Shown here: in pieces, positions 2,170-32,196 of the stretch
Layout of the letters: every line of letters starts with the position of its first letter
Position numbering within the stretch: the first letter of the stretch is position 1
Origin: an uncultured Bacteroidales bacterium
GTDB lineage: Bacteria; Bacteroidota; Bacteroidia; Bacteroidales; Paludibacteraceae
Assembly: GCA_902774075.1 (NCBI GenBank)
Contig: CACYGT010000013.1
Location: 1 to 32,400, forward strand
Direction of reading: 5' to 3'
Length of the DNA: 32,400 nucleotides
Position numbers and translations under genes: made by a program
The notes under the pieces: generated by a model
Database searches by the model: none
Told to the model about the DNA's origin: nothing
What the model saw: only the letters and a program-made list of their open reading frames with translations

Positions 2170-2815
2170 CATATTGCTCATTGCTCTTTGTTCTTTGTTC
2201 TTTGTTCCGGCATATGCCAAGAACGATAGCATCTATCAGGCAACGCAGATCAAGTTGGATATCGCGAGTCCGATCGTAGTGCCGGCCGCGCATAAATGGC
2301 AGATACAACACTATGAGGTAGCGGTGAACGTACGACTCAAGAACCGCTTCTTCCCTACCCTCGAGTTGGGATACGCAGGCGGTAACACCACACAGGGCGA
2401 CACGGTCAGTTATAAAGGACAAGGAGGGTTCTTCCGCGTAGGATGCGACATCAACCCGCTTAAGAAAAATCCGGGGAGTCCGCATTCGTTGTTGATAGGC
2501 GTTCGTCTGGGTACCGCAGTACAGGGTTTTGACCAAGAGGTGAATAACAGTAAGTTTGGAGCACGTGAGGTGAAAGGTACGCAAGCTGACTGCTGGGGAG
2601 AGATAGTGGCGGGATGTCAGGTAGAGGTTGCCCAAGTGAACAAAACCGCTTTTTATATGGGTTGGATGGGACGACTCAAATGCCTCTTCACCCGCTCGGA
2701 AGGCAAGACAGATGAGATGAGCGTCAACACCCCCGCGGTGATCTACATTCCGGGCTTCGGTCCAAGAGACACCATCGGCTGGGGATTGAACTATTATTTA
2801 GGATGGAGATTTTAA
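2147..2815 (+). CDS. Exported DUF6048-like outer-membrane protein
   Basis: A 222-residue protein with a signal peptide (MKRKN, hydrophobic core, cut probably after AYA near residue 24). The mature part is short amphipathic strands with aromatic ends, such as FPTLELGYAGGN, SLLIGVRLGTAV and LNYYLGWRF. The terminal aromatic residue suits an outer-membrane beta-barrel. It resembles the Bacteroidota DUF6048 family, whose role is unknown to me. It begins inside the end of the preceding gene. The hydrophobic core of the signal peptide is encoded by a tandem array of 7-base units (2173-2207), which is unusual. Family name is from memory; exported barrel nature is inferred. Confidence 0.8.
   Translation: MKRKNLCNILLIALCSLFFVPAYAKNDSIYQATQIKLDIASPIVVPAAHKWQIQHYEVAVNVRLKNRFFPTLELGYAGGNTTQGDTVSYKGQGGFFRVGCDINPLKKNPGSPHSLLIGVRLGTAVQGFDQEVNNSKFGAREVKGTQADCWGEIVAGCQVEVAQVNKTAFYMGWMGRLKCLFTRSEGKTDEMSVNTPAVIYIPGFGPRDTIGWGLNYYLGWRF
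2173..2207 (+). repeat. Heptanucleotide array in a signal peptide
   Basis: Five 7-base units: ATTGCTC twice, then TTTGTTC three times. In frame this encodes most of the hydrophobic core of the signal peptide of the DUF6048-like protein. Confidence 0.85.
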
Positions 2816-2835
2816 CAAAACAAAAATACATTACT

Positions 2836-4845
2836 ATGAACAAGACACAACTTTTGAATCGTGCGGCGGATAACATCCGTATCTTGGCCGCAGCGGCAGT
2901 AGAGAAAGCTAAGAGTGGTCACCCGGGCGGTGCGATGGGTGGCGCAGACTTCATCAACGTCCTCTTCAGCGAGTTCCTGGAGTATGACCCAGAGAACCCG
3001 GGTTGGGAAGCCCGCGACCGTTTCTTCTTGGATCCGGGTCACATGGCTCCGATGCTCTATAGCCAACTCTGCCTGGCAGGTAAGTTCACCCTCGACGACC
3101 TGGCTAACCTCCGTCAATGGGGTTCGGTCACACCGGGTCACCCCGAGCGTGAGATTGAGCGTATGATCGAGAACACCTCCGGTCCGCTGGGTCAAGGACA
3201 TACCTTCGCTGTCGGAGCTGCGATCGCCGCCAAATGGTTCAACACCCGTTATGGTGCTATCCATAACCCGACGATATACGCCTTCATCTCCGATGGTGGT
3301 GTGCAGGAAGAGATCTCGCAGGGTGCAGGTCGTCTGGCCGGTCACCTCGGACTCGACAACCTCGTTATGTTCTATGACTCGAACACCATCCAGCTCTCCA
3401 CCGAGTGCGGTGAGGTAACGAGCGAAGATGTAGCAGCCAAGTACGCTGCTTGGGGTTGGTACGTACAGGAGATCCCGGGCAATGACCCCGACGCTATCCG
3501 CGAGGCCATCATCAAAGCCAAAGCAGAGAAAAACCGTCCGTCGATCATCATTGGTCATACGACCATGGGTAAAGGTTGTGTCACAGCAGAAGGTGCTAAC
3601 TGGGAAGGTAAGTGTTCGACCCATGGTGCACCGTTGAGCAAAGCCGGTGCATCCTTCGAGAAGACCATCGAGCACCTCGGTGGTGATCCCACCAACCCCT
3701 TCCAGATCTTCCCAGAAGTCAAACAACTGTACGACGAGCGTGCAGCTGAGTTACGCGAGATATGCAACAAGCGCTATGCCGCTTACTACGACTGGAAACA
3801 GGCGAATCCGCTGGCAGCGAACGAATACGAGACCTTCATGTCGGGCGAAGTGCCATGCATCGACTGGAGTCTGATCGAACAGAAACCCGGAGACGCTACC
3901 CGTAATGCCAGCGGTAAGGTGCTCTCCTTCCTGGCTGAAAACGTCGGTAACATGATCGTTTCATCGGCTGACTTGTCGAACTCCGACAAGACCGACGGCT
4001 TCCTCAAGAAGACCCATGCCCTCAAGAAAGGCGACTTCAGCGGTCAGTTCCTGCAGGCCGGTGTAGCCGAACTCACCATGGCATGCGTATGTATCGGTAT
4101 GGCCCTGCACGGCGGTATCATCCCCGCTTGCGGTACCTTCTTCGTCTTCAGCGATTATATGAAACCTGCCGTACGTATGGCTGCCCTCATGGAGCTGCCG
4201 GTGAAATTCATTTGGTCGCACGATGCTTTCCGCGTAGGCGAAGACGGTCCGACCCATGAACCGGTAGAGCAAGAGGCACAGATCCGTCTGATGGAGAAAC
4301 TGCATAACCACCATGGTGCACCCTCGATGCTCGTTGTTCGTCCGGCAGATGCCGAAGAGACGACGCTTGCTTGGCGTGCTGCAATCGAGAACACCGCCAC
4401 CCCGACGGCCCTTATCCTCAGCCGTCAGGACATCGCGCCGGTGCCCAACGTCAACCTCGAGGGTTTCCGCAAAGGTGCGTACATCGTCTCCAAGGACGAG
4501 AACCCGCAGATCGTTCTGTTGGCTTCGGGATCTGAGGTATCGACACTCCTCGCAGGTGCTGAACTGCTCCGCGCAGAAGGTATCCGTCTGCAGATCGTGA
4601 GCGTACCGAGTGAAGGTCGTTTCCGTCAGCAAGACAAGGCTTACCAGGACGAGGTGCTGCCGAAGGGTATCAAGCGTTTCGGTATGACTGCCGGTCTGCC
4701 TTGCACGCTCGAAGGACTTGTGGGCGAGAACGGCGCTATCTGGGGACTCGAGAGCTTCGGTTTCTCCGCTCCGTACAAAGTGCTGGACGAGAAACTCGGC
4801 TTCACCGCACAGAATGTTTATGAGCAAGTAAAAAAACTCTTATAA
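2836..4845 (+). CDS. tkt: Transketolase
   Basis: Thiamine-diphosphate enzyme that moves two-carbon units between ketoses and aldoses in the pentose phosphate pathway. The 669 residues match the family length. Visible signatures are KSGHPGG near the N-terminus and the cofactor-binding segment ISDGGVQEEISQGAG ending in FYDSN. The catalytic-Glu region AGVAELTMA and the SHDAFRVGEDGPTHEPVE loop follow. The cofactor motif reads SDGG where many transketolases have GDG. The start at 2836 (MNKTQLLNRAADN) is chosen over an in-frame ATG at 2803, which overlaps the upstream gene. leuS follows after 3 bases. Confidence 0.96.
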   Translation: MNKTQLLNRAADNIRILAAAAVEKAKSGHPGGAMGGADFINVLFSEFLEYDPENPGWEARDRFFLDPGHMAPMLYSQLCLAGKFTLDDLANLRQWGSVTPGHPEREIERMIENTSGPLGQGHTFAVGAAIAAKWFNTRYGAIHNPTIYAFISDGGVQEEISQGAGRLAGHLGLDNLVMFYDSNTIQLSTECGEVTSEDVAAKYAAWGWYVQEIPGNDPDAIREAIIKAKAEKNRPSIIIGHTTMGKGCVTAEGANWEGKCSTHGAPLSKAGASFEKTIEHLGGDPTNPFQIFPEVKQLYDERAAELREICNKRYAAYYDWKQANPLAANEYETFMSGEVPCIDWSLIEQKPGDATRNASGKVLSFLAENVGNMIVSSADLSNSDKTDGFLKKTHALKKGDFSGQFLQAGVAELTMACVCIGMALHGGIIPACGTFFVFSDYMKPAVRMAALMELPVKFIWSHDAFRVGEDGPTHEPVEQEAQIRLMEKLHNHHGAPSMLVVRPADAEETTLAWRAAIENTATPTALILSRQDIAPVPNVNLEGFRKGAYIVSKDENPQIVLLASGSEVSTLLAGAELLRAEGIRLQIVSVPSEGRFRQQDKAYQDEVLPKGIKRFGMTAGLPCTLEGLVGENGAIWGLESFGFSAPYKVLDEKLGFTAQNVYEQVKKLL

Positions 4846-4848
4846 TTA

Positions 4849-7623
4849 ATGGAATATAATTTTAGTGACATAGAGCGCAAATGGCAAGAGGCCTGGGCGA
4901 AGGAAGGCGTTTATACCGTCTCCAATGAATCCGACAAGCCCCATTACTACGTGCTCGATATGTTTCCTTACCCCTCGGGAGCCGGCCTCCATGTCGGCCA
5001 CCCGCTGGGTTATATCGCGAGTGATATCTACGCGCGCTACAAACGTCAACAGGGCTTTAACGTACTCCACCCGATGGGTTTTGACTCGTACGGTCTGCCC
5101 GCCGAGCAGTACGCTATCCAAACCGGCCAACATCCGGAGAAAACGACGTTCGAGAACATCGACCGTTATATATCGCAGTTGAAGAAGATCGGTTTCTGCT
5201 ACGACTGGAACCGCGAGGTACGTACCTGCGACCCCAAGTTCTACAAGTGGACGCAGTGGGCCTTCATCCAGATGTTCAACTCGTATTTCGATCCCAAGAC
5301 GCAGAAAGCACAGCCGATCAGCAAACTGATTGCCGAGTTCGAAGCCAATGACCCGAAGTGGGCGACGCTGAGCGAACGCGAGAAGCAAGAGCGCCTGATG
5401 AACTACCGTATCGCCTATCTCGCAGATACGAAGGTCAACTGGTGCCCGGCTTTGGGTACGGTGCTGGCGAACGACGAAGTGTCGGAAGGCCTCAGCGTAC
5501 GCGGCGGTTATCCTGTGGAGCAACGCGTGATGCGGCAGTGGTGTCTGCGTGTGAGTGCATACGCAGGACGTCTGCTCGAGGGACTCGACCGAATCGACTG
5601 GACGGAGAGCCTCAAAGAGACCCAGCGTAACTGGATCGGTCGCAGCGAAGGCGCTGAGATGCAGTTCAGCATCAAAGGACAAGACGAACCCTTCACGATC
5701 TTCACCACCCGTGCGGATACGGTCTTCGGTGTGACCTTCATGGTACTGGCACCGGAGAGCGAGTACGTGCAGCGTGTCGTCACCGACGAGCACAAAGAGG
5801 AAGTGGAACAATACCTCGCATGGGTCAAACATCGTACGGAGCGCGAGCGTATCGCCGACCGCAAGGTGACGGGTGTGTTCACCGGCTCGTATGCCATCAA
5901 CCCCATGACACAAGGTGAGATTCCTATCTATATTTCCGACTACGTGCTGGCTGGATACGGTACCGGCGCTATCATGGCTGTACCGGCACACGACAGCCGT
6001 GATTATGCTTTCGCCAAACACTTCAACCTGCCTATCATCCCGCTTATCGAAGGCGCGGATGTGAGTGAGGAGTCGTTTGATGCCAAAGAAGGCAAGATGA
6101 TCAACTCGGGCTTCCTCAACGGTATGGAGGTCAAAGAGGCCATCCAAGCCATGAAGGAGTTTATCACCAACACCGGCATCGGACGCGTCAAGGTTAACTA
6201 CCGCCTGCGTGATGCCATCTTCTCTCGTCAGCGCTACTGGGGCGAACCCTTCCCGATCTATTACAAGGACGAGATGCCGTATACGGTGGAGGAGAAAGAC
6301 CTCCCGCTGCTGTTACCGGAGGTGAAGGAGTTCAAGGGCGTCAACGGTCAACCGCCGTTAGGCAACGCCGAGAACTGGACCTATGAAGGTTATCCGCTGG
6401 AGCTCTGCACCATGCCGGGCTTTGCCGGTTCGTCGGCGTATTACCTCCGTTACATGGACCCGCATAACGACGAGGCACTCGTCAGCAAACAAGCCAACGA
6501 ATACTGGCGTCAGGTGGACCTCTATCTCGGCGGTAGTGAGCACGCGACGGGACACCTGATCTACTCCCGTTTCTGGAACAAGTTCCTCTACGACCTCGGT
6601 TATGTGTGCGAGGACGAACCGTTCAAGAAACTCATCAACCAGGGTATGATCCAAGGCCGTTCGAACTTCGTCTATCGTTATATCGGCGAAGGCGCGACGG
6701 GTAACCTCTATATCAGTTATAACCTCATCGAGAACCCCGAGTACAAGGACAAAGTACAACCGATACACGTCAACGTCAACATCGTCAACAACGACGTACT
6801 TGACATCAATGCCTTCCGCGCATGGATGCCGGAGTTCAAGAACGCCGAGTTCGTCTTCGCGGACGGCACGTCTTCCGAACTGACAGGTTATCTAGCCGGT
6901 CCGAAGCAGTATATATGCGGTTGGGCGGTGGAGAAAATGTCCAAGTCCATGTTCAACGTCGTCAACCCGGACGACGTGATCGCGAAGTTCGGTGCAGACA
7001 CCTTGCGTCTCTACGAGATGTTCCTCGGTCCGTTGGAGATGTCCAAACCTTGGGATACCAACGGCATCGACGGCGTGCATCGTTTCCTCAAACGTCTGTG
7101 GAACATGTACGAGAACATCGTCGATGAAGAACCGACCAAAGAGGAGTTGCGCAGCCTGCACAAACTCATCAAGAAGATCACTTGGGACATCGAGAACTTC
7201 TCGTTCAACACCTCCATCCCTGCTTTCATGATCGCGCAGAACGAGTTGAGCACCCTCAAGTGCAACAAACGCGCTATCCTCGAGCAGGTAGCCGTATTGC
7301 TCGCGCCGTATGCGCCGCATATCGCCGAGGAAATGTACCATCGATGCAAAGAAATGTCAAATGACAAATGTCAAATGTCAAATTTCGTTGTAAACGAATC
7401 GTGGCCGGAGTGCAACGAGGCATACCTCGTAGAAGACAGCCAGAAGTACCCCGTACAGTTCAACGGTAAGGTGCGTTTCACCTTCGAGTGCCCCAAAGAC
7501 ACCCCGAAGGAAAAGGTAGAGAAACTGGTGATGGCGTGCGAAGAGACGGCTAAGTACCTCAACGGAGGCACACCCAAGCGCGTCATTGTAGTCCCCGGAA
7601 AGATCGTGAATATCGTAGTATAA
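4849..7623 (+). CDS. leuS: Leucyl-tRNA synthetase
   Basis: Class Ia synthetase that charges tRNA-Leu and edits mischarged products. The 924-residue protein has the HIGH-type motif HVGH at residues 48-51, a CP1 editing domain (about 225-430) containing [17 protein letters not shown], and KMSKS at residues 696-700. The anticodon-binding domain and a C-terminal domain ending [11 protein letters not shown] follow. The loop joining these last two domains (about residues 835-846, [12 protein letters not shown]) is encoded by a tandem array of 7-base units at 7352-7386 and looks like an in-frame expansion. It follows tkt after 3 bases. A hairpin at 7625-7656 lies just after the stop. Confidence 0.97.
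7352..7386 (+). repeat. Heptanucleotide array inside leuS
   Basis: Five units of 7 bases: AAATGTC, AAATGAC, AAATGTC, AAATGTC, AAATTTC. It is in frame and encodes a Ser/Asn/Met/Cys-rich loop between the anticodon-binding and C-terminal domains of leucyl-tRNA synthetase. The same unit family occurs at 28816-28850. Confidence 0.9.
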
Positions 7624-7624
7624 A

Positions 7625-7656: not shown

Positions 7657-7657
7657 G

Positions 7658-7811: not shown

Positions 7812-9161
7812 ATGCAAATAAAATTAGAATATAAGCGCAGAAAGACCACAAACATACAGGTTGGAAACATTTTTTTAGGCTCCGACTACCCTATTCGTGT
7901 GCAGACGATGGCCAACACCGACACAAACGATATCGACGGTTCGGTGGAGCAAGCCAGACGTTGTATCGAGGCCGGCGCTGAACTGCTTCGGTTCACTACA
8001 CAGGGCCTTCGCGAGGTCGAATCGCTCAAAGAGATCCATGCCCAGGTGCTGACTGCCGTACCCTTGGTGGCTGACGTGCATTTCCAGGCGGACGTAGCAG
8101 ATGCGGCTGCCGAGTTTGTAGAGGCCGTGCGCATCAACCCGGGTAACTACTCCAAAGATCCTACCAAAATCAGAGAGCGTTTTATTCACCTCATGGATAT
8201 CTGCCGCGAGCACGAGACGGCTATCCGTATCGGCGTCAACCACGGTTCGCTCTCCGAGCGCATGATGGACAAGTACGGCGACACCCCGGAAGGAATGGTC
8301 GAGTCCGTCATGGAGTTTCTGCGCATCGCCGTAGAGGAGGAGTTTGACAATATCGTCATCTCTGTCAAGGCCTCCAACACGCGCGTGATGGTGGAGACCG
8401 TGCGCCTGCTCGTCAAGACGATGAACAAGGAGCATATGGCTTTCCCGCTGCACCTGGGTGTGACCGAAGCCGGGGAAGGCGAAGACGGACGTATCAAATC
8501 TGCGGTAGGTATCGGGGCATTGCTCGCAGACGGTATCGGCGACACGATACGCGTAAGCCTGAGCGAAGCGCCGGAGAACGAGATACCGGTGGCGCAGGAG
8601 TTGGTCGACTACTTCGCCGACGAAGACTCTATCCGTTATGACGGATCGGTAGTGGCCGAAGTGCTGGATAACATAGGCGGCGACGCAGAAGTGCGTTATA
8701 CGAGTTACGAGGATAACTGGGAGACTTTCGCTCTGCAAGCCGCAGCCGAATGCGGACGTCTACTCTGGGAATTCAAAGCCCGCGAACTGACGCTCGTCAA
8801 TCCCAACTTCAATGAGAACAAACTCAACTTCCTCAGTAAGGACATCCTCCAGGCCGCACGCGTACGTATCTACAAAACGGAGTATATCTCCTGCCCCAGT
8901 TGCGGCCGTACCCTCTTCGACCTCGAAGAGACCATCCGTAAGGTCAAAGAGGCCACAGGGCATCTGACCGGTCTGAAGATCGCCATCATGGGTTGTATCG
9001 TCAACGGTCCGGGTGAGATGGCAGACGCCGACTACGGCTATGTAGGCGCCGGACGCGGACGTGTGAGCTTGTACAAAGGCAAAGAGTGCGTGCTCAAGAA
9101 CATCCCGCAGGAAGAAGCCGTCGAACAACTGCTTAAATTGATTGAATCCGATAAAAACTAG
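7812..9161 (+). CDS. ispG: 4-hydroxy-3-methylbut-2-enyl-diphosphate synthase
   Basis: IspG (GcpE) reduces methylerythritol cyclodiphosphate to HMBPP in the non-mevalonate isoprenoid pathway using a 4Fe-4S cluster. The 449-residue protein has a TIM-barrel part (about 1-260, with FRVQTMxNT-type start PIRVQTMANTDT). The C-terminal iron-sulfur domain has cluster Cys residues 361, 364 (CPSC) and 395, plus the Glu of NGPGE (402). Length is intermediate: enterobacterial forms are about 370 residues, and from memory most Bacteroidota forms exceed 600 with a large middle domain. Here only about 80 extra residues (roughly 265-350) lie between the domains. ATG 7812 is chosen because an upstream in-frame ATG (7752) lies within the divergent tRNA promoter. 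The stop codon is part of a CTAG repeat. Confidence 0.95.
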   Translation: MQIKLEYKRRKTTNIQVGNIFLGSDYPIRVQTMANTDTNDIDGSVEQARRCIEAGAELLRFTTQGLREVESLKEIHAQVLTAVPLVADVHFQADVADAAAEFVEAVRINPGNYSKDPTKIRERFIHLMDICREHETAIRIGVNHGSLSERMMDKYGDTPEGMVESVMEFLRIAVEEEFDNIVISVKASNTRVMVETVRLLVKTMNKEHMAFPLHLGVTEAGEGEDGRIKSAVGIGALLADGIGDTIRVSLSEAPENEIPVAQELVDYFADEDSIRYDGSVVAEVLDNIGGDAEVRYTSYEDNWETFALQAAAECGRLLWEFKARELTLVNPNFNENKLNFLSKDILQAARVRIYKTEYISCPSCGRTLFDLEETIRKVKEATGHLTGLKIAIMGCIVNGPGEMADADYGYVGAGRGRVSLYKGKECVLKNIPQEEAVEQLLKLIESDKN

Positions 9162-9193
9162 GGTCCTAGTATCCTAGGTCCCTAGTATCCTAG
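9158..9193 (+). repeat. CCTAG repeat, period 8
   Basis: CCTAG occurs four times at 8-base spacing, alternating TAT and GTC spacers, preceded by CTAGG that includes the ispG stop codon TAG. The units are near-palindromic, so the region could also fold into hairpins. No T-run follows. It lies 33 bases before pfp. Confidence 0.8.
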
Positions 9194-13932: not shown

Positions 13933-13951
13933 GAACTGCAAATTGAAAACT
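13924..13951 (+). repeat. Heptanucleotide array at a gene junction
   Basis: Units GAGAACT, GAGAACT, GCAAATT, GAAAACT. The array supplies the TGA stop of the HlyD-like gene (13930-13932) and the TTG start of the first permease gene (13943-13945). Confidence 0.85.
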
Positions 13952-17404: not shown

Positions 17405-17432
17405 CTTTAAACTTTAAACTTTCAACTTTCAA
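17405..17432 (+). repeat. Heptanucleotide array in a promoter region
   Basis: Units CTTTAAA, CTTTAAA, CTTTCAA, CTTTCAA, then a degenerate CTATTTT. It covers the position where the -33 box of the GH53 promoter would lie (CTTT at the right distance). Confidence 0.88.
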
Positions 17433-17450
17433 CTATTTTGCGTACCTTTG
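17419..17450 (+). promoter_or_regulatory. Promoter of the GH53 gene
   Basis: TACCTTTG at 17443-17450 is a good -7 box. Twenty bases upstream is only CTTT, inside the heptanucleotide array, so the -33 box is weak. The expected transcription start (about 17455) is only a few bases before the ATG at 17459, so the message would be nearly leaderless. TTTGCACCCG after the box matches the tRNA promoters. Confidence 0.65.
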
Positions 17451-17458
17451 CACCCGTT

Positions 17459-20269: not shown

Positions 20270-22273
20270 ATGAAAAAGTCCCTTCCGATAGTATGTGCAG
20301 TGTTTCTCGTGATCGCGATGACGGTACAGTTCTTCGTGTCCTATAACCGAGAGAAAAGAGACCTGATGCAGCAGATCGAGTACAAGATGGATCTGTCGCA
20401 GAAGGATTTTCTGTTTGAGGTGTACGACGTGCATGAGGCGACGGATGAGATCACCCATTTCTTTCCGGAGTTTGAGAACAACACGAACGACTTATACGCG
20501 CTGTTAGAAACAGTCCTTGCGCATTATCCGGACCTGTATTGCTGTTATCTCACCTTCCCTCCCGAGACTTCGCCGCACCGCGGTCAATGGTCCTGTCTGA
20601 CGGCTTTTCGCGTGCAGGGAGACTCGATCATCACGTATGATGCCAAGCACACCATCCATTATGAGCAGCGCGATTGGTACCAGGGTGCGCTAGAGAGCGA
20701 GGAGGACGGTTATTGGAGCTTACCCTATAACGACGGCACGCACGAAGACCCGGTCTTTACCTACTCGCAGAAGATCTACGACAGCCGGGGCAAACTGGTC
20801 GGTGTAGCCGGTGTCGATTGCACCTTGGCTTGGACAGCCCAACTCTTAGAGGGCATCAAACCCTATGACGATGCCGTCTGTCAGTTGTTCAGCGACGACG
20901 GCACACTCATCGTCGGTTGCGGTCATAAGGCCGATCAGCACGACCGGATCATCTTCGAGAAAACACTGTCTCCGACCGACATGCGTATGGTAATCACGGT
21001 GCCTAAACGCCATATCCGCAGAGGTATCGCCGGTGTCAGCCTCATCACCCTCTCGGTCCTCCTGTCCGGTATATTGATCATCGGCCTGCTGCTCCATCAT
21101 ATCAAGAAAGAGCAGGATGCGTTCACCCGCATGGAGACCACCAACAAGCTGATGGAGAAAGAGATGCAGATCGCCCATGATATCCAGATGGGTATCCTAA
21201 AAGGGAACAATGGACAATGGACAATGGACGATGGAGGCATCGATCTGTATGCGTTGCTGATCCCGATGCGCGAAGTGGGAGGCGACTTGTATGATTTCTT
21301 CCGCGAAGAGGACAAACTATGGTTCATCATCGGCGATGTGAGCGGCAAGGGCGTCCCCGCAGCGATGTTCATGAGTGCAGCCGTCAACCTCTTCCGCGCA
21401 GCAGGCGCACATTCCGACTCGCCCAAACAGATCATGGAGAAGATGAACGCTGTCTTGAGCGAAAACAACCCCTCCCTTACTTTCGTCACCGCTTTCATCG
21501 GTCGACTGCATATACCTACCGGCGAACTGCTCTACTGCAATGCCGGCCATTGTCAACCGCTCAAGGTGACGGGTGACGGGGCACAGGTGACCGGATTAGA
21601 GATCGAGCCGAACATACCTTTGGGCTACAAGGGCAACTACTCGTTTGTGGAGCAGGGAACCATGTTAGGCCAAGACGAGACCCTCGTGCTCTACACAGAC
21701 GGCATCACCGAAGCGCGCAACACCAAACGGGAGATGCTCGGTATGAAACGCTGGGAGAAGATCGTAGCTAAGGAAAAAGATCTGCCTAAAGCCATCAAAC
21801 AGTATACCGGATCGGCAGAGCCGACGGATGACATCACCCTTATGACCATTCGCAAGACCGGCGCGGTGGAGCCGCTGACCTTGCGCGTAGAGAACCGCAT
21901 GGACTGCTGGCCTCAGATGCGTACGGCCTTGCATGAATATGGGCTGTGTGCCGGTTTGGACTTGCGCACGCTCAAGAAAACCGAAGTGGCCATCGAAGAG
22001 GCGGTGGTCAATATCGTCAACTACTCGCAGGCAACTTGGATGGAATTAAAGGTGAAAGGTGAAAGGTTAAAGGTGAAAGGTTTAGAGATTACTCTTTCTG
22101 ATAACGGCATCGCTTTTGACCCGACGAAGCAGGCAGAAGTGGACACCGAGCAAGTGACGGCCGAGCGGCAGATAGGTGGCTTAGGAATAGCCCTGCTGCG
22201 TAAGATAACCGACGAAGTGCGATACGAACGTACCAACGACATCAATGCTTTGACAATAACAAAAAACATATAA
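20270..22273 (+). CDS. Cache-PP2C phosphatase fused to HATPase (RsbU/RsbW-like)
   Basis: A 667-residue sensor-regulator. Transmembrane helix 1 is at about 5-25, an extracytoplasmic Cache-like sensor at about 35-245 (YEQRDWYQGA, YSQKIYDSRGKLVGVAGVD), and helix 2 at about 250-275. A short coiled linker leads to a SpoIIE/RsbU PP2C domain (about 320-525) with EVGGDLYD (metal Asp339), IGDVSGKG (Asp356) and YTDGITE. A C-terminal GHKL domain (about 535-667) has EEAVVNIVNYS, LSDNGIAFDP and GGLGIALLRK, as in anti-sigma kinases. It therefore holds both the phosphatase and the kinase of a partner switch, with the STAS target encoded 3 bases downstream. Three heptanucleotide arrays lie in frame within it. 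Confidence 0.92.
   Translation: MKKSLPIVCAVFLVIAMTVQFFVSYNREKRDLMQQIEYKMDLSQKDFLFEVYDVHEATDEITHFFPEFENNTNDLYALLETVLAHYPDLYCCYLTFPPETSPHRGQWSCLTAFRVQGDSIITYDAKHTIHYEQRDWYQGALESEEDGYWSLPYNDGTHEDPVFTYSQKIYDSRGKLVGVAGVDCTLAWTAQLLEGIKPYDDAVCQLFSDDGTLIVGCGHKADQHDRIIFEKTLSPTDMRMVITVPKRHIRRGIAGVSLITLSVLLSGILIIGLLLHHIKKEQDAFTRMETTNKLMEKEMQIAHDIQMGILKGNNGQWTMDDGGIDLYALLIPMREVGGDLYDFFREEDKLWFIIGDVSGKGVPAAMFMSAAVNLFRAAGAHSDSPKQIMEKMNAVLSENNPSLTFVTAFIGRLHIPTGELLYCNAGHCQPLKVTGDGAQVTGLEIEPNIPLGYKGNYSFVEQGTMLGQDETLVLYTDGITEARNTKREMLGMKRWEKIVAKEKDLPKAIKQYTGSAEPTDDITLMTIRKTGAVEPLTLRVENRMDCWPQMRTALHEYGLCAGLDLRTLKKTEVAIEEAVVNIVNYSQATWMELKVKGERLKVKGLEITLSDNGIAFDPTKQAEVDTEQVTAERQIGGLGIALLRKITDEVRYERTNDINALTITKNI
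21206..21233 (+). repeat. Heptanucleotide array between linker and PP2C domain
   Basis: Units AACAATG, GACAATG, GACAATG, GACGATG. In frame it encodes an Asn/Gly/Gln/Trp/Asp-rich stretch directly before the PP2C core. Confidence 0.88.
21565..21592 (+). repeat. Heptanucleotide array in the PP2C domain
   Basis: Units GGTGACG, GGTGACG, GGGCACA, GGTGACC, encoding VTGDGAQVTG. It is nearly the same as the array at 30124-30151 in the TonB receptor gene (25 of 28 bases by eye) and is read in the same frame. Confidence 0.88.
22045..22086 (+). repeat. Heptanucleotide array in the HATPase domain
   Basis: Six units: ATTAAAG, GTGAAAG, GTGAAAG, GTTAAAG, GTGAAAG, GTTTAGA. It encodes a Lys/Val/Gly/Glu-rich beta-hairpin-like segment between the N-box and the G1 box. 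Confidence 0.9.
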
Positions 22274-25500: not shown

Positions 25501-28500
25501 TCGGGATACCGTGATACCGGAATCCTGGGATACCGAAGAAGATTTGACCGCCCCTTATCCTCTCAGCCACGCCCAGACAGGTGTCTATTTCGAGTGCATG
25601 AAGAACCCCACTTCTACACTCTATAATATACCTATGCGCGCGAGACTGCCGCTGGAGATTGAGAACGAGACCCTCCGCGCAGCAGTAGAGCAAGTGGTCA
25701 ATAACCACCCCGAACTCTTCGTTCATTTCCGCACCAACGATACCGGCGTCGAGCAGATCGTCGAGCAGCAAGAACTGAAAGTTGAAAGTTTAGAGTTGAA
25801 GGAATCCGAACTCGAAGCCTTCCGTGCGGAGTTCGTTCGGCCGTTCAACTTGAGCAAAGACCTGCTGTGCCGTTTCGCCATCGTGCGCACCGAAGTGGCG
25901 CTCTACCTCTACTGCGACATGCACCACCTCGTTTGCGACGGCGCGTCGTACGATGTGTTCTTCAACGAACTCTGCGCCCTGCTCGACGGCGGAGCCATCG
26001 ACAAAGAGATGTGCTCGTACGCCCAGTTCGTAGCTGATGAACAAGCTGCCAAAGACGGCGAGGAATATGCATCGGCGAAGGAGTTCTTCCATTCGCAACT
26101 TGCACAGGTAGAAGGTATTACCGAACTCGCACCGGACCTCACCAATCCCAAAGACGGAGAGATAGGACAACTCTATGCGCCGATGGATATCAAGGCCGCG
26201 GAGAGTCTGGCTAAGATCGCAGGCGTCACCCCCGCCGGTGCGACCCTCGCCGCGGTCTTCTATACCCTCGCGCGCTTTGCGAACGCTGACGACCTCTGTA
26301 TCACCACCATCTCCAACGGACGCTCTAACCTCAAGATGGCGAACACCGTCGGCATGATGGTCAACACCCTCGCGCTAAGCAGTAAGATAGCCGACCAGAC
26401 CGTCGAGGACTTCGTCCGCGAGACCGGAACACATTTCGAAGAGACCCTCGCCCACGAGAACTACCCGTTTGCGCAAATCGCAGCCGACTACGACCTCACG
26501 GCGGAGATCATGTTCGCTTACCAACTTGGTGTACTCTCTGAGTACAAGATCAAGGGACAAGCCATCACGACCGAGAACATGGAGCTCAACGTGCCCAAGT
26601 TCAAGATTGCGTTCTATATCGTCGAAGTGGAAGGCCAACCGAGCGTCGCTATCGAGTACGATAACGGCCGTTACAGCCGCGAACTGATGCAGTCGCTCGC
26701 GCAGTCGGTAAGCAACGCCCTCAGTGCCTTTGCCGCTCAGCCGAAGGCTACCCTGCGCTCGATCTCGCTCATGGGCGAAGCGCAGACGAAGCTGCTCGAC
26801 AGTTTCAACGAGACCGCTGTGCCCTACGATAACACGCAGACCATCCTCTCGCTCTTCAAAGCGCAGGTAGCCAAGACCCCCGATGCCCTCGCGCTCGTCT
26901 ATACCGACAAACGCTTCACCTACCGCGAGGTCGATGAACTGTCCGACCGCATCGCCGCGGGCTTGCACCCGACGACCAACGTCATCGCCATCAAAGTGCA
27001 GCGCAGCGAGTGGATGGTACTCGGTGCCTTAGCCGTCCTCAAGACCGGCTGTGCCTACCTGCCGCTCGACCCCTCGTATCCCGAGGAGCGCCTCGCTTAC
27101 ATGCAGCAGGATGCCAACAGCTGCATGCTCCTGACCGAAAAAGAGTTCGAGGAGCTTCAGAATACTCCCGTAACCGGTAAACCCTTACCCGTAACCGCTA
27201 AGCCCTCCGACCTCTTCATCTTGTTGTACACGAGCGGCTCGACAGGCGTGCCTAAGGGCGTCCAGCTCGAGCACGGTAACCTCGTCGCGTTCTGTCACTG
27301 GTACCAGCGGTACTACGACCTGCATGTCGGTCATAAGGTAGCGGCATACGCCTCCTTCGGTTTCGATGCCTGCATGATGGACCTCTATCCGGCGCTGACG
27401 TGCGGCGCAGCCGTTTATATCGTGCCGGAAGATCTGCGTCTTAACCTGCCCGAACTCGGCCGTTATTTCGATGCCGAAGGCATCACGCACTCCTTCATGA
27501 CCACCCAGATTGGCTATCAGTTCGCGACGAACGTGGACTGTCATTCGCTCCTCCACCTCTCCGTGGGCGGCGAAGCCCTCTCGGCACTCAACCCGCCGAC
27601 GAACTACAAGATGCACAACGGTTACGGTCCGACGGAGTGTACCATCTTCACAACAACCTACCTCCTCAACGAATACGAGCAACATATACCTATCGGCAAA
27701 CCGCTTGATAACCTGCAGCTCTTCATCATGGACACCAACGGCCAACGTCTGCCGCTCGGTGCTACCGGCGAACTCTGGGTCAGCGGTCCGCAGGTCAGCC
27801 GAGGATACCTCAATCTCCCCGAGAAAACCGCCGAGACCTTCGTCACATGGAACGGCAAGCGTTGCTACCGAACCGGTGACATCGTGCGTTACCTGCCCGA
27901 CGGCAATATCCAGTTTGTCGGCCGTCGTGACGGACAGGTTAAGATCCGCGGTTTCCGTATCGAGCTCAAAGAAGTAGAGGCGGTCATCCGTCAGTTCGAC
28001 GGCATCAAGGATGCCACCGTTCAGGCCTTTGACTACCCCAACGGAGGTAAGTTCATCGCTGCCTATATCGTCAGTGACCAACAGATTGATATCCAGGCGC
28101 TCAACGCCTTCATCCGCGAGCGCAAGCCGCCGTACATGGTGCCGGCGGCTACGATGCAGATCGACCTCATCCCGCTCAACCAGAACCAGAAGGTCAACAA
28201 ACGTGCCCTGCCTGCGCCGAAGATTCAGGCAGACGACCACGACTACGTAGCGCCAGCCAACGATACCGAGAAACTCTTCGCGGATATCTTCGCGTCTGTC
28301 CTCTCGCTCGACAAGGTCGGTGCCACGGATAACTTCTTCGAGCTGGGCGGTACCTCGCTCATGGTGACGCGCGTCATCATCGAGGCCGACAAAGCCGGCA
28401 AGCATATCGCCTATGCCGATCTCTTCGCCCACACTACCCCGCGCGAACTGGCGACCCTCGTGGACGGACAGGGAGCGGCGGACGAAGGCGAGACCGTCGA

Positions 28501-29698
28501 TCGCGAGATCACCGAGTTCGACTATACCGCTATCAACAACATCCTTCAAGCCAACAGCCTCGAGACCTTCAAGGCCGGCGAGCGCCAGGACTTGGGCAAC
28601 GTCCTCCTCACCGGAGCGACGGGTTACCTCGGTATCCATGTGCTCAAAGAGCTCATCGACTCCGACGCCAAGACCATCACCTGTCTCGTGCGCGGTAAGA
28701 GTCATGAAGATGCGGAGCGTCGTGTGCGTAACCTGCTCTTCTACTACTTCAGCCGTCGCTTCGACGAGCTCTTCGGCACGCGTATCTTCGTCGTCCAAGG
28801 CGATGTCACCAGTGATTTCAAATTACCAATGACAAATGACAAATCACAAATAGACACCGTCTTCAACTGCGCGGCCAACGTCAAGCACTTCTCCAAGGGT
28901 ACGGACATCGAAGATGTCAATATCGGCGGCGCACAGCGCTGTGTGGACTTCTGTCTCGCTACAGGCGCGGCACTCGTCCATGTCTCCACGACCTCGACGG
29001 GTGGTGTCTGGATCGGCAATAACATGCCGGCACCGACCCTCACGGAGCGGAACATATGGTTCGGACAGTACCTCGGCAACCAGTACATGCACTCGAAGTT
29101 CTTGGCTGACCGCCTCATCCTTGATGCGGTCGCTACCAAGGGTCTGCGCGCTAAGATCATGCGTGTCGGTAACCTCGCCGCGCGTAGCTATGACGGAGAG
29201 TTCCAGGTTAACTTCTCCACCAACAGTTACATGGGACGTATCAAGATCTTCAACATGCTCGGTTGCTGTCCGTACGACCAGTACGATAACCCCACAGAGT
29301 TCTCGCCGATCGACCAGACGGCCAAAGCGATCGTGCTGCTGGCAACCACGCCGAAAGAGTGTACGGTCTTCCAGCCGTATAACACCCACACGCGTCTGTT
29401 AGGAAACGTGCTGCAGGTACTCGACAAACTGGGTACCGAGATGCAGTTCGTTGAGCCCGAGGCCTTCGGTATGGCCATCCAGCAAGCGGCTCTGGATCCA
29501 CAGAAAGCGCCGTTATTAACGACGATGCTGGCGTACCAGAACATCGCGCACGGTCAACCGACCCAGATAGTAGACCGCAACAACGAATACACGTCTCAAG
29601 TACTGCTGCGTCTCGGTTTCCGCTGGACCGAACCCGATAACGAGTATATCGGTCGCATGCTGACCGCGATCAGCCAACTGGGATTCTTTGATGTATAA
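22592..29698 (+). CDS. Dimodular NRPS, C-A-PCP-C-A-PCP-reductase
   Basis: Non-ribosomal peptide synthetase of 2368 residues. C1 about 1-430, HHVLADG at 129-135 intact; A1 about 445-885, with YTSGTTGTPKG from 549, YGPTECT, YRTGDIV and the Lys of NQKVNKRAL; PCP1 about 890-965, carrier Ser926 in VGLSSI. C2 about 985-1420, HHLVCDG at 1111-1117; A2 about 1425-1870, YTSGSTGVPKG from 1546; PCP2 about 1885-1955, Ser1922 in ELGGTSL. The terminal reductase is about 1990-2368, with TGATGYLG from 2007 and YMHSK (Tyr2165, Lys2169). All core residues are present. A reductase end implies release as an aldehyde or alcohol. The N-terminal C domain without a loading module suggests N-acylation. Three heptanucleotide arrays lie in frame, all near domain linkers or loops. 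Confidence 0.95.
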   Translation: MKSPLSQAQGGVYYACETSVSDEYNYQNPVLFTLPEDADLGRLQQAVQNALAAHPYLGSKVVVNDEGIPEMESNVEGVAFKVERFEVSEAEWKAAQETFAQTMDIHSDKLYRAEIYSVNGKSYLYIDLHHVLADGFSVTLLLRDIERLYNGKKPAGELMDGAAIANDEAAQRADEALMGEAKEWYAKTFCDAADTDSLPIPEPILALSDQPAESRYQMFPLAVSKDEIQTIEKRFGAKESVIMQTAFAQLLATYSAEEKASYCTAFWGRTDRRTLGSITMMVHTLPVFLQTKADTPIADMLASMDEQLHLTQKYQFYAYPDAVRDLGLNNQVMFVYQGAVLADKRGLHLGETLVPYTDLRKPTPGWKLCAELFETDGQYALKLSYNTADYSEAFLQQLAAAYSMILRSMVTAECVKEIEYCAEEQITWLDALNPKDPQPSKGSLVARFKEHVKNQPNALCIVAGDKRLTYAEVDKLSDSLDPQYTQRCGEHVIGYSVPRNEQMIIVPLSIAKAGMTAMPLDSSYPAERLDFMRSDAAQYEGGEAFILLYTSGTTGTPKGVMLSEQNILTFCDFHTKRIGLTNESRYATYAGYGFDAFMCDLWGCMTAGASMYVIGDDIRFDLDAIHDYILSEQITHIFMTTQVATQLVQNFPDIPCLQHLGTGGEKLMSLDPPTYKLQNAYGPTECTVYVSCYYVHQNEPNIPIGSANDSAQLFIVNKYGHRVPWGAAGELLIAGPQVGIGYLNQPEKTAQAFVEWNGKRVYRTGDIVRYRHDGEIEFVGRKDGQVKIRGFRIELKEVEAVIRQFEGIKDATVQAFDYPSGGKFIAAYIVSDQKIDIQALNAFIMDQKPPYMVPAVTMQIDAIPLNQNQKVNKRALPEPKAQTDDTPKEAAPLNVLEEQLADIVAGIVNNRDFGITTDLRYVGLSSISAIKLATQVYKRFGVQLDAKLLVKGANIQTIENEILVAMLGGHRDTVIPESWDTEEDLTAPYPLSHAQTGVYFECMKNPTSTLYNIPMRARLPLEIENETLRAAVEQVVNNHPELFVHFRTNDTGVEQIVEQQELKVESLELKESELEAFRAEFVRPFNLSKDLLCRFAIVRTEVALYLYCDMHHLVCDGASYDVFFNELCALLDGGAIDKEMCSYAQFVADEQAAKDGEEYASAKEFFHSQLAQVEGITELAPDLTNPKDGEIGQLYAPMDIKAAESLAKIAGVTPAGATLAAVFYTLARFANADDLCITTISNGRSNLKMANTVGMMVNTLALSSKIADQTVEDFVRETGTHFEETLAHENYPFAQIAADYDLTAEIMFAYQLGVLSEYKIKGQAITTENMELNVPKFKIAFYIVEVEGQPSVAIEYDNGRYSRELMQSLAQSVSNALSAFAAQPKATLRSISLMGEAQTKLLDSFNETAVPYDNTQTILSLFKAQVAKTPDALALVYTDKRFTYREVDELSDRIAAGLHPTTNVIAIKVQRSEWMVLGALAVLKTGCAYLPLDPSYPEERLAYMQQDANSCMLLTEKEFEELQNTPVTGKPLPVTAKPSDLFILLYTSGSTGVPKGVQLEHGNLVAFCHWYQRYYDLHVGHKVAAYASFGFDACMMDLYPALTCGAAVYIVPEDLRLNLPELGRYFDAEGITHSFMTTQIGYQFATNVDCHSLLHLSVGGEALSALNPPTNYKMHNGYGPTECTIFTTTYLLNEYEQHIPIGKPLDNLQLFIMDTNGQRLPLGATGELWVSGPQVSRGYLNLPEKTAETFVTWNGKRCYRTGDIVRYLPDGNIQFVGRRDGQVKIRGFRIELKEVEAVIRQFDGIKDATVQAFDYPNGGKFIAAYIVSDQQIDIQALNAFIRERKPPYMVPAATMQIDLIPLNQNQKVNKRALPAPKIQADDHDYVAPANDTEKLFADIFASVLSLDKVGATDNFFELGGTSLMVTRVIIEADKAGKHIAYADLFAHTTPRELATLVDGQGAADEGETVDREITEFDYTAINNILQANSLETFKAGERQDLGNVLLTGATGYLGIHVLKELIDSDAKTITCLVRGKSHEDAERRVRNLLFYYFSRRFDELFGTRIFVVQGDVTSDFKLPMTNDKSQIDTVFNCAANVKHFSKGTDIEDVNIGGAQRCVDFCLATGAALVHVSTTSTGGVWIGNNMPAPTLTERNIWFGQYLGNQYMHSKFLADRLILDAVATKGLRAKIMRVGNLAARSYDGEFQVNFSTNSYMGRIKIFNMLGCCPYDQYDNPTEFSPIDQTAKAIVLLATTPKECTVFQPYNTHTRLLGNVLQVLDKLGTEMQFVEPEAFGMAIQQAALDPQKAPLLTTMLAYQNIAHGQPTQIVDRNNEYTSQVLLRLGFRWTEPDNEYIGRMLTAISQLGFFDV
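25773..25800 (+). repeat. Heptanucleotide array in NRPS C2 domain
   Basis: Units AACTGAA, AGTTGAA, AGTTTAG, AGTTGAA. It encodes a Glu/Leu/Lys/Val/Ser-rich segment before the HHLVCDG part of the second condensation domain. The unit is the reverse complement family of the array at 17405-17432. Confidence 0.82.
27167..27201 (+). repeat. Heptanucleotide array in NRPS A2 domain
   Basis: Units CCCGTAA, CCGGTAA, ACCCTTA, CCCGTAA, CCGCTAA, encoding TPVTGKPLPVTAK just before the YTSGSTG motif. In reverse complement it belongs to the GGTTACG/GGTGACG family of 21565-21592 and 30124-30151. A1 lacks this stretch entirely. Confidence 0.87.
28816..28850 (+). repeat. Heptanucleotide array in NRPS reductase domain
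   Basis: Units TTTCAAA, TTACCAA, TGACAAA, TGACAAA, TCACAAA, encoding FKLPMTNDKSQ in a loop of the reductase after the VVQGDVT strand. Same unit family as the leuS array. Confidence 0.88.
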
Positions 29699-29703: not shown

Positions 29704-29710
29704 TAGAGGT

Positions 29711-31480
29711 ATGTTCTTTTTGAGCATCTTATTGGCTGTCTCGTTGCTACTGGACGAAGTGAGTGTGACGGGACACCGTGCTGAGGTGGAATCGGACAAC
29801 ATGCGTCTGGTGATGACGCTGAACGCAGAAGACGTACAGTTATTGCCGGTGAAGACGGTGGCGGACTTGCTCCAATACCTTCCCGGCATCGACGTACGTC
29901 AACGCGGCGCCAGCGGGGTGCAGATGGACCCTTCTGTTCGGGGAGGCTCCGCAAAACAGGTCAAAGTGCTGCTCAACGGCATCGACATGACCGATCCCCA
30001 GACCGAGCACTACTCGATGGATATCCCCATCGATCCCCTCGTCATCGAGCGTATCGAAGTGCTGCAAGGCACCAACTACGCCATCGATGCCTTCTCCGGA
30101 GCGATCAATATTGTGACCAAAGCGGTTACGGGTGACGGGGTACAGGTGACGGGTCAGATGACGGCCGGAGAGTACGGTTTGGCCCATCCGGTGATGGCGG
30201 TGCGGGCGCATAAAAACGAATGGTACGTCAACAGTTCGGCTTCGTACAACCGATCGGACGGCTATGACCACAACACGGATTACCAGATCGTCAACGCTTT
30301 TGTGCAGACCGGTTACCAAGGGCTGGATATCCAGGCAGGCGCGCAGTTCAAGGATGCAGGCGCAAACAGTTTTTACACTACCAAGTATCCCGATCAGTTC
30401 GATGCCACACGCATGGCTTTCGGTTCGATAGCCTATCAGCACCGTTGGCAGAGCGGTTGGGCGGTGCACACCCATGCCTATTACCGCACTCACTATGACC
30501 GGTATGAGTTAGTCCGAGGTACGCCGCTTAACCGCCATTGGACCCACACGGCCGGGGTGCATGCCGAAGGCAGTTGGTCCAACGAATGGTCCAAGACGAT
30601 GGCGGGTGTGGAGGTAAGAAACGAGTATATCCGCTCCACCAACATAGGTATCCATAACCGCACCCAACTGCGTTATTTTGCCGAGCAGCGTTTCTTCTGG
30701 CGCGGCCTGAGTGCCGCCGTAGGTGCTGCAGGCATCTGGAACACCCAGTTCGGACACGATTGGTCGCTGGGCGCCAACATAGGGTATGAACCGATAGCGG
30801 GTCTGCATCTCTTTGCGAACGTCAACCGGGCTATCCGTGTACCGACGTTTACCGACCTCTATTACCATGCCGCCACCCAACAGGCGGACTCGCTCACCAA
30901 GCCCGAGAAAGCGCTGCAGGTGGAGTTGTCCGCGCAGTACAGCAAGGGACATTGGTTCGCCTCTGTGGCCGGTTATTACCGATGGGGAAAAGATATCATC
31001 GATTGGATCAAGGCCCCCGACCAGGAGGTCATCGTCTGGCGCAGTACCAACAACTCCCGCGTCAATGCGGCAGGTGTCGAGGCGACGGTAGGAGTACAGG
31101 GCTATGAATGGATCAAACGTATCGAACTCAGTTATGCTTTCTGCGATGTACAGGCAGATGCGGGCGGAATGATGTCGCTCTATGTGCTGGATTACCTGCG
31201 CCACAAAGCCACCCTGCGTATCGAGCATCGCATCTACAAAGGCTTTGGTGCCTCATGGGCCCTGTCTTTCCGCCAACGTGAGGGAACCTACACCTCCCGC
31301 GAGGGTACAGTAGAACACTACCATCCTGTGTGGCTCTTGGACGGCAGTGTCTATTGGCATAATGAGTTCTTAAAAGTGAGTGTGGACGCCAAGAACATGG
31401 CAGACCAACGCTACTATGACTTCTCAGGTGTGCTCCAACCGCGCCATTGGGTCAGCGCCACCGTACAGTTCACTCTCTGA
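29711..31480 (+). CDS. TonB-dependent outer-membrane receptor
   Basis: A 589-residue receptor for TonB-driven uptake. A short hydrophobic leader (MFFLSILLAVSLLL, with no basic residue) precedes a likely TonB box (DEVSVTGHR). The plug domain (about 35-135) has VADLLQYLPGIDVRQRGASGVQ, PSVRGG and IERIEVLQGTNYAIDAFSGAINIVTK. The 22-strand barrel follows and includes NRAIRVPTFTDLYYH and the C-terminal VSATVQFTL. Size and plug resemble BtuB/FepA-like receptors rather than SusC. It follows the NRPS by 12 bases, suggesting a link to its product, but cobalamin or another substrate is equally possible. One heptanucleotide array lies right after the plug. Confidence 0.92.
   Translation: MFFLSILLAVSLLLDEVSVTGHRAEVESDNMRLVMTLNAEDVQLLPVKTVADLLQYLPGIDVRQRGASGVQMDPSVRGGSAKQVKVLLNGIDMTDPQTEHYSMDIPIDPLVIERIEVLQGTNYAIDAFSGAINIVTKAVTGDGVQVTGQMTAGEYGLAHPVMAVRAHKNEWYVNSSASYNRSDGYDHNTDYQIVNAFVQTGYQGLDIQAGAQFKDAGANSFYTTKYPDQFDATRMAFGSIAYQHRWQSGWAVHTHAYYRTHYDRYELVRGTPLNRHWTHTAGVHAEGSWSNEWSKTMAGVEVRNEYIRSTNIGIHNRTQLRYFAEQRFFWRGLSAAVGAAGIWNTQFGHDWSLGANIGYEPIAGLHLFANVNRAIRVPTFTDLYYHAATQQADSLTKPEKALQVELSAQYSKGHWFASVAGYYRWGKDIIDWIKAPDQEVIVWRSTNNSRVNAAGVEATVGVQGYEWIKRIELSYAFCDVQADAGGMMSLYVLDYLRHKATLRIEHRIYKGFGASWALSFRQREGTYTSREGTVEHYHPVWLLDGSVYWHNEFLKVSVDAKNMADQRYYDFSGVLQPRHWVSATVQFTL
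30124..30151 (+). repeat. Heptanucleotide array in the TonB receptor gene
   Basis: Units GGTTACG, GGTGACG, GGGTACA, GGTGACG, encoding VTGDGVQVTG at the plug-to-barrel border. Near copy of 21565-21592, same orientation and frame. Confidence 0.88.
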
Positions 31481-31483
31481 CCG

Positions 31484-32110
31484 CTACGCAGCCATGCTGC
31501 GGATATAGGCGAGGATGAGGTCTACGGCCGCGTCCTCGTTTATCTCGTCCATGTTGATGACGAGCTGGTAGTTGCGGGTGTCATAACGCGATGTGCCGGT
31601 GAACTCACGTACGTAGTTCTCGCGCATCTGATCCACTTTCTCGATCACCAGGCGCGCTTCCTCTTTGGACATGTTCTGTTCCCTCGCCACACGAGCCATG
31701 CGGCTGAGCATCGAAGCTTGGATGAAGATATTGAGGTGGTTCGGATGGTCACGATACATATAGAACGCCGTACGACCGGCGATGACACAGGAACTATCCT
31801 TGGCCAGCGCCTTGAGGATATTCGTCTCCGCGCGGAAGACATCTTCGGTTTCAATACCGGTCTGGTTCAGGTCGTAGCCCGAGTCCGATAAAGTCATCAT
31901 ACGCACGAACTCAGCTAACCAGCTCTGCTTGCGACCTTTTATTTCTTCTATATCCTCAGCAGAGAGGTTATAGCGCTCTTGCAATGCCTTGATGACAGCT
32001 TTGTCGTAGTACTCCACACCTAATTTTTCAGCCAACTTACGGCCGACCGTGCGACCGCCGCTTCCTAACTCACGATTGATCGTGATGACAAATTTATTAT
32101 TGATATTCAT
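31484..32110 (-). CDS. Cytidylate kinase-like protein
   Basis: A 208-residue P-loop protein of the cytidylate kinase-like family (PF13189, from memory). FVITINRELGSGGRTVGRKL carries a P-loop variant with Gly16-Ser-Gly-Gly-Arg20. VEYYDKAVI, SSCVIAGRTAFY and a C-terminal lid-like helical part (MARVAREQNMSKEEARL) follow. True CMP kinases differ in the substrate site, so the substrate is unknown. It converges on the TonB receptor gene with only 3 bases between the stops and no room for a terminator. Its leader of about 90 bases contains a period-8 repeat. Confidence 0.92.
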   Translation of the reverse strand: MNINNKFVITINRELGSGGRTVGRKLAEKLGVEYYDKAVIKALQERYNLSAEDIEEIKGRKQSWLAEFVRMMTLSDSGYDLNQTGIETEDVFRAETNILKALAKDSSCVIAGRTAFYMYRDHPNHLNIFIQASMLSRMARVAREQNMSKEEARLVIEKVDQMRENYVREFTGTSRYDTRNYQLVINMDEINEDAAVDLILAYIRSMAA

Positions 32111-32165
32111 ATTGAAAAATTATTTCTGGTATTTTTGTATAATAACAGCATTCCAAGACATAAAA

Positions 32166-32196
32166 GGTTAAGCTGTTTAATCGTTAAGCTGTTAAC
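32166..32196. repeat. Period-8 repeat in the kinase leader
   Basis: On the + strand TTAAGCTG, TTTAATCG, TTAAGCTG, TTAAC: four imperfect 8-base units. They lie between the promoter and the start of the cytidylate kinase-like gene. Confidence 0.7.

Follow-up and report, generated by a model that had tools for sequence, protein, structure and literature searches.

Why does the DNA of an uncultured Bacteroidales bacterium (Paludibacteraceae) carry so many short tandem arrays of 7-base units, both in genes and between them, and how do the host proteins stay intact when seven is not a multiple of three? The question is raised by a stretch of 32,400 nucleotides (nt), called the window here, which is part of contig C13 (CACYGT010000013.1) of a draft genome (1.80 Mb, 95 contigs). 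When comparing the window with the rest of its genome and with a genus of 178 species (incomplete draft genomes, given G-numbers; fetched loci are given L-numbers), we found that arrays have been inserted at many unlinked places, that their unit families are genome-specific, and that the family occupying a site is replaced by another. We consider it probable that the arrays are dispersed blocks of about 30 nt, spread by recombination that needs little homology and filtered for reading frame and for tolerant places.

Period 7 stood far above its controls. A genome sample of 432.4 kb (the window and 20 further stretches of 20 kb each, 24% of the genome) contained 89 period-7 runs, whereas a single order-2 Markov surrogate had none. 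The next basic periods were 8 (10 runs), 9 (9) and 11 (9), with periods 14, 21 and 28 treated as harmonics of 7. A codon-matched control, synonymous codon shuffling of 321 crudely called open reading frames (ORFs), gave a mean of 1.40 and a maximum of 4 runs over 20 shuffles compared with the 51 observed in ORFs; that is, period 7 is commoner than in codon-matched random sequence. One 50-kb stretch of E. coli K-12 gave no run at any period from 4 to 15. By place, 51 of the 89 arrays lay in crude ORFs, 19 partly so and 19 outside; since these ORFs, some of them surely spurious, cover 94% of the sample, arrays are over-represented outside genes yet abundant inside them. Across the genus the density ranged from 3 to 32 period-7 runs per 100 kb (17 genomes including the window's own, at least 66 kb sampled from each).

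The sample held 42 unit families, and both the sample and the genus comparison bore out the claim of the initial annotation that unit families recur on both strands. With ten leuS arrays left out, units were shared by 208 of 5959 array pairs within genomes (3.5%; 178 of 5256 when only different stretches were paired) and by 537 of 46,691 pairs between genomes (1.15%), compared with 0.23% for random units, and 0 of 2000 label shuffles gave within-genome sharing as high. These figures bear on the explanation by local slippage only, in which each array has grown in place from a chance duplication, with 7-nt polymerase steps and composition bias. Sharing about 5 times (between genomes) to 15 times (within genomes) that of random units speaks against it, although sharing above random between genomes is also what composition bias would give.

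The AAAGTCG family also speaks against slippage. An exact 20-mer of this family was present in 66 of the 178 genomes and in none of the other 112, with 0 to 48 matches per genome on both strands and about 470 in total, as against 2 matches of the backwards control in all 178 genomes. The highest number, 48 overlapping matches from about 42 separate arrays, was found in G147, from which the first 30 matches were fetched, leaving 27 loci after overlaps and one duplicated stretch were dropped. Ten of these loci hold an identical perfect 30-mer; the perfect runs begin at AGTCGAA in 14 of 27 and finish at AAAG in 15 of 27, and such preferred end points are not expected from slippage. The flanks are unrelated except for neighbours, a few short matches and the one duplicated stretch, and most of the arrays lie within long open frames. 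G147 carries AAAGTCG in leuS and in an RsbU-like gene, where other species carry other families. Judged by sequence, the perfect 30-mer repeat has no stop codon in any of its six frames, and 30 is a multiple of 3; the length and the stop-free frames may explain the tolerance of this repeat. Stops on one strand do occur in other families, AAAGGTG for example.

The host studied best is leuS, and its two features in the window are as follows.

4849..7623, + strand: leuS, leucine--tRNA ligase (LeuRS; TIGR00396), the best-studied array host.
7352..7383, + strand: period-7 array AAATGTC/AAATGAC inside leuS, net +24 nt compared with the empty loop.

The gene is open along its full length in the window, and in many relatives the loop is empty and reads HRC-GNES-FVV. 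Among 29 relatives, the 16 read in the right frame are without the 8-residue insert; the other 13 were read in the wrong frame, and two of them, G036 and G007, hold arrays. A wider survey started from DNA matches in 149 of the 178 genomes and covered 113, which yielded readings of 91 loops. Of these, 52 were empty (60 nt), 21 held period-7 sequence (score ≥8) and 18 were filled otherwise. The 22 loops not read by the pattern include seven that are empty in the alignment; since the reading requires an unbroken frame, frame-breaking cases could hide among the unread loops. At least seven heptad families occur among the loops read, and a length of 84 nt is common to 11 species and five families.

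Loop of 84 nt: AAATGTC (G000); CGCTMAA or close (G036, G007, G159).
Loop of 84 nt: AATCAGC (G074, G075, G129, G082); the related CCRTCAG (G144, G160); AATTCAC (G142).
Loop of 87 nt: AAAGTCG heptads (G168, G147); an octad array (G155).
Loop of 75 nt: CCAAGTA.

A slippage step of a single unit would break the frame of this essential gene, yet loops of one length hold different families. Slippage alone is not an easy explanation of this, nor of units shared by unlinked loci. Some observations do favour it: heptamers are linked to polymerase active-site size and slippage in the discussion of PMC4692102, periods 8, 9 and 11 also occur, and units are homogenised within arrays, as at one site of the RsbU-like gene where G141 and G147 differ by TTG/TCG in several units. 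Weighing both sides, we disfavour slippage as the only process and think it unlikely.

In a quick tree of the leuS fragment with the loop left out, the loop states were scattered. G129, which has an AATCAGC loop, clusters with the empty G002 and G004 (Shimodaira–Hasegawa-like approximate likelihood ratio test, SH-aLRT, 99), and one clade of 13 rows (SH-aLRT 98, several forks open) mixes two empty rows, four heptad families, two palindromic inserts and one longer form. This scatter could also arise if alleles of tolerant loops, arrays included, were shuffled between species by short-tract homologous recombination, in which case leuS would need no dispersal within genomes. Consistent with such shuffling, the CCAAGTA allele occupies separate tree positions (G149, G034/G136, G073), as does the AATCAGC allele (G129, G075, G074), with support partly below 95 in both cases, and the AATCAGC carriers are without another exact copy. 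Furthermore, the 30 nt after the insert (window 7384-7413) are identical in G000, G074, G068 and G088, although the neighbouring leuS blocks are only 63–90% identical to G074 and G000 stands elsewhere on the tree. Shuffling of loop alleles, however, makes no new families and leaves unexplained why one genome has a family in dozens of copies at unrelated places, and we regard it as improbable. The shared 30 nt contain an inner inverted repeat, TTCGTT-GTA-AACGAA.

Besides heptads, the leuS loop holds GC-rich palindromic inserts in their place (L153 from G068 and L321 from G041, also L333, L353 and L146); one such insert is common to G068 and G041, and similar inserts occur at other array sites in relatives. 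The octads of G155 have the same 87-nt loop length as the heptads of G147. Together with the stereotyped 30-nt copies and their preferred ends, this octad array and the palindromic inserts at the leuS site would suit a dedicated mobile or templated system that sets array length, with independent insertions at shared tolerant sites. No enzyme, template RNA or target duplication was identified for such a system, and by eye more than one leuS family begins with the same left edge, CAAG, as if a single older insertion had been overwritten from within. We give this explanation very little credence. The flank TTCGTTGTAAACGAA was considered as a piece of a mobile unit and rejected, being present in at most one copy per genome sample and at leuS only.

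An AlphaFold2 model of a 295-residue LeuRS fragment had low confidence (mean pLDDT 60.9), and in it the insert follows a helix (residues 194–207) and falls mostly in a stretch under 50, which weakly supports its predicted position in a loop. The LeuRS of the window is 92% identical to that from the genome of uncultured Bacteroidales bacterium isolate RUG715, where RUG stands for a rumen genome, which makes a gut-type Bacteroidales the most likely source. No internal stop was present in the full-length LeuRS matches listed.

Replacement extends beyond leuS, and the places concerned in the window include the following.

8936..8975, + strand: place in ispG, array-free in the window, with arrays of different families in G073, G129 and G142.
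20270..22273, + strand: RsbU-like phosphatase gene with three array sites.
21207..21235, + strand: period-7 array ACAATGG, site 1 of the RsbU-like gene.
21565..21594, + strand: degenerate period-7 array GGTGACG, site 2 of the RsbU-like gene, with other families there in relatives.
22048..22081, + strand: period-7 array AAAGGTG with one GGTTAAA unit, site 3 of the RsbU-like gene.

At the ispG place, the three families in three species each add 15 nt to the best empty sequence. In seven relatives (G043, G059, G003, G021, G147, G141 and G001), the array sites of the RsbU-like gene are occupied by different families or, judged by eye, by degenerate heptads. One site carries a CCTTTCA array or a CAATTTA array in G015 and G030 with a net length difference of 0, and another has octads (by eye) in G034 and G168 and heptads in other genomes. 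In total, 326 arrays had enough flank for comparison, and for 66 of them a fetched relative offered an orthologous site. The resulting 296 pairs count both directions and include many views of the leuS site from several genomes. The site was empty in 122 pairs; it held a different array of equal length in 63 and a different array of other length in 48; the rest were of equal length and similar (18), shared a unit (9) or were without period 7 (36). Arrays are thus not merely inserted; at a fixed site they are also exchanged for the array of another family.

The alignment of orthologues with and without arrays located lineage-specific insertions at leuS and at other sites, and agreed with the initial annotation that arrays inside genes keep the frame. 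What preserves it is that most net insertions are a multiple of 3 in length, as was the case in 21 of 31 best empty-site comparisons, a set that includes intergenic arrays, loci repeated across genomes and two leuS rows that are off through alignment edges. No target duplication was seen by eye at array sites, where the relatives are too distant for a formal test. As for the proposed single mutational process or mobile class, these lineage-specific insertions and the genome-specific families support a dispersed class that enters tolerant places; the process may or may not be a single one: periods 8, 9 and 11 occur at a lower rate, sometimes at sites where relatives have period 7.

The window was also scored array by array. 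Its 13 listed short arrays were scored at lag 7 (+1/−1), with expectations from 60 Markov surrogates collecting scores ≥8 only, and 12 of them were supported. Lag-7 scores were 12–24 for those at 2173, 7352, 13924, 17405, 21206, 22045 and 28816 (0.00 expected per 32 kb), 11 for 21565, 25773 and 27167 (0.08 expected) and 10 for 30124 (0.25 expected). Two octad arrays had been claimed; that at 9158 held (lag-8 score 12, 0.02 expected), and that at 32166 did not. A stricter array call (+1/−2 scoring, score ≥11) was passed by six of the 13 (2173, 7352, 17405, 21207, 22048 and 28821); the remaining six supported arrays are degenerate, short or of period 8, and each would be weak if standing alone. 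The array places not given above are these.

2173..2207, + strand: period-7 array (units ATTGCTC/TTTGTTC) at the start of a DUF6048 protein, which by eye resembles a signal peptide there.
9158..9193, + strand: period-8 array with a constant CTAG core, starting at the ispG stop codon.
13924..13952, + strand: short degenerate period-7 array (score 12) at the junction of an HlyD-like gene and an ABC-2 gene.
17405..17434, + strand: intergenic period-7 array of 30 nt; L009:8794 in the same genome holds an identical one.
25776..25797, + strand: degenerate period-7 array (score 11) in an NRPS-like gene.
27167..27214, + strand: degenerate period-7/21 array in the NRPS-like gene.
28815..28851, + strand: AAATGAC-like period-7 array in the NAD_binding_4 part (terminal domain) of the NRPS-like gene.
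30124..30154, + strand: degenerate GGTGACG-like period-7 array (score 10) in a TonB-dependent receptor gene.
32166..32196, + strand: claimed octad array, unsupported (score 5 at lag 8, 4 at lag 7).

CTAG-core arrays of periods 8 and 9 were also seen in loci of G036 and G015. In window 17405-17470 the intergenic array immediately precedes the motif TACCTTTG, which we take to resemble the Bacteroidetes −7 promoter element and treat as a candidate only. Across the genus there are period-11 arrays, several with a CGACNGTCAAC-like unit (L055, L059, L064, L070), and clusters of period-9 arrays, TTTTCTCAA-like, common to G015 and G030 (L056:14618-14800, L062:982-1173). One pair of these TTTTCTCAA-like arrays differs by a whole 9-nt unit, as slippage would leave it.

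Further families were followed across larger collections. The AAAGGTG array that includes a single GGTTAAA unit is found again at several loci of G000, G015 and G030, and a 23-nt core of it was found in 41 of the 178 genomes of the genus, with 0 backwards control matches. More generally, an imperfect 21-mer was shared by 93 of 335 arrays, compared with 10–29 when the changes were placed randomly. The genome collection has at least 119 stretches with the exact 21-mer of three AAATCTC units, counted without a backwards control; the matches listed include Cyanobacteria, Bacteroidota, Planctomycetes, Verrucomicrobia, Patescibacteria and others. At 58 loci among these listed matches (selected for holding an array, with the matched array excluded, and grouped by record title), period 7 was the commonest of periods 5–11 in all seven groups. 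Three AAATNTC units, sought in 296 sampled Bacteroidota genomes, gave 52 matches in the window's genome against 6 for the backwards control. The AATCAGC family was found in 40 of the 178 genomes, with about 98 matches against about 65 backwards.

Viral sequences were examined as possible carriers. The perfect 30-nt block beginning at AGTCGAA is present in 21 IMG/VR contigs (L422-L442), and the imperfect AAAGGTG core is present in none. Seven of the 21 share one open frame of 134 residues that spans the 30-mer, for which the relatives found are 99–100% identical; a PHROG scan of seven frames gave one weak holin match and nothing for the other six. Phages were set aside as carriers, the matches being probably one phage repeated and hence uninformative.

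Several results weigh against spread by block copying. Outside the window's genome, the three AAATNTC units gave 21 matches in the other 295 Bacteroidota (14 genomes, 1 to 6 each), below the approximately 30 backwards matches, so that this pattern is not special there. The backwards control for AATCAGC is not clean either: 51 of its approximately 65 matches come from G071 and G134, two genomes in which the reversed word seems to form a separate heptad family. In G074, G075, G129 and G082 the leuS array is the sole exact match to the AATCAGC 20-mer, so that its source was no family abundant in the genome that carries it; likewise, G168 has an AAAGTCG-like leuS array and 0 exact matches to the AAAGTCG 20-mer. 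Within genomes, 52 arrays shared an imperfect 21-mer, compared with 26–51 in 20 deals of units within genome and family. Copying of whole imperfect arrays, being barely above units dealt anew, is thus not counted as strong evidence. In the quick leuS tree, 19 of the 50 inner branches are open. Full-length matches to window 6600-7700 reach 83% identity at best and two partial ones 86%, and no recent insertion with near-identical flanks was present among these matches. Finally, neither a carrier enzyme nor a target-site duplication was found. It was also considered that the leuS array belongs, as a rule, to the common family of its own genome; this holds in G147 and fails in the four AATCAGC carriers and in G168, and for G000 and G007 it is suggested by samples too small to decide.

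We nevertheless favour spread by block copying as the probable explanation. An array would be a block of often about four heptads plus a few bases, approximately 30 nt in all. Low-homology recombination, with ectopic gene conversion and microhomology template switching as candidate routes, would copy such blocks between arrays as well as to new sites. Some alleles of a site may also pass between species, as the 30 identical nt after the leuS insert suggest. The blocks that selection would then retain, in loops, linkers, signal peptides and intergenic DNA, are mainly those that preserve the frame and bring no stop codon into it; slippage in place would supply new unit variants rather than act as the main carrier. 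A bolder form, which we find doubtful, is that in bacteria of this genus an unknown copying process writes blocks of four heptads, about 30 nt long and with preferred ends, into tolerant sites and swaps the blocks, so that the loops of essential proteins take up the current "word" of each genome. If true, loops of essential proteins would be repeatedly rewritten by block copying.

Heptad repeats themselves are not new. To our knowledge, they have been known for decades without an accepted origin. Phase-variable simple sequence repeats, or contingency loci, are short tandem repeats inside genes; unlike these, the present arrays, so far as they were read, keep the frame, lie in housekeeping hosts and change in unit identity besides number, and all 91 leuS loops read were in frame, though the reading would miss broken ones. 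Vioque is said to have described short tandemly repeated repetitive (STRR) sequences in RNase P RNA in 1997. The initial annotation knew of no formal description of such arrays, but heptameric repeats have already been described in many bacteria, including five Bacteroidetes.

Heptameric repeats are over-represented in many bacteria (PMC4692102), and named heptad classes exist in cyanobacteria, Xanthomonas and Beggiatoaceae (PMC4692102, PMC4679880, PMC4476775). STRR sequences are known from filamentous cyanobacteria (PMC4476775, PMC3488679, PMC2670836), and in the P6b loop of the Nostoc trnL intron whole heptad classes have been repeatedly replaced at a fixed locus (PMC4476775). Our arrays agree with the STRR and Nostoc P6b repeats in their degenerate 7-base units, in having more than one class and in occupying a tolerant loop of a functional gene, and, as in STRR sequences, tandem degenerate 7-nt units occur at many loci with recurrent families in one genome. 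P6b is an intron hairpin with pairing repeats, whereas the present hosts are protein genes of Bacteroidales, including at least one essential gene; the families here are far more numerous, and each genome has many loci.

TAACTGA heptamers are reported from Beggiatoaceae, Cyanobacteria and five Bacteroidetes, some of them in ORFs (PMC4679880). These resemble our arrays in being dispersed heptads, patchy over distant phyla and sometimes inside ORFs, and differ in that a single unit dominates and usually lies a few bases before a start codon, where ours have many units and many in-gene positions. The canonical form AACTGAT was not among the 42 families of the genome sample, and one array of it was found in the relative G017. 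The GGGAATC and GGGGA(C/T)T heptads of Xanthomonas and Nostoc (PMC4692102) likewise have period 7, a preference for about four units, dispersal, and length and sequence varying between close species; unlike our mostly A/T-rich and often genic arrays, they are G-rich quadruplex formers and strongly non-coding. Heptad replacement in protein genes or in Bacteroidales was not found in a search of titles and starts of abstracts, which left subscription papers mostly uncovered. With block replacement published for the Nostoc intron, replacement in protein genes appears to be new, as we found no report of it.

With both empty and differently filled sites in a genus of 178 species, the birth, spread and replacement of heptads become countable. 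The arrays offer a route by which protein loops can gain or change several residues at once with the frame intact, which bears on protein evolution, on annotation and on work that treats tandem repeats as the product of slippage alone.

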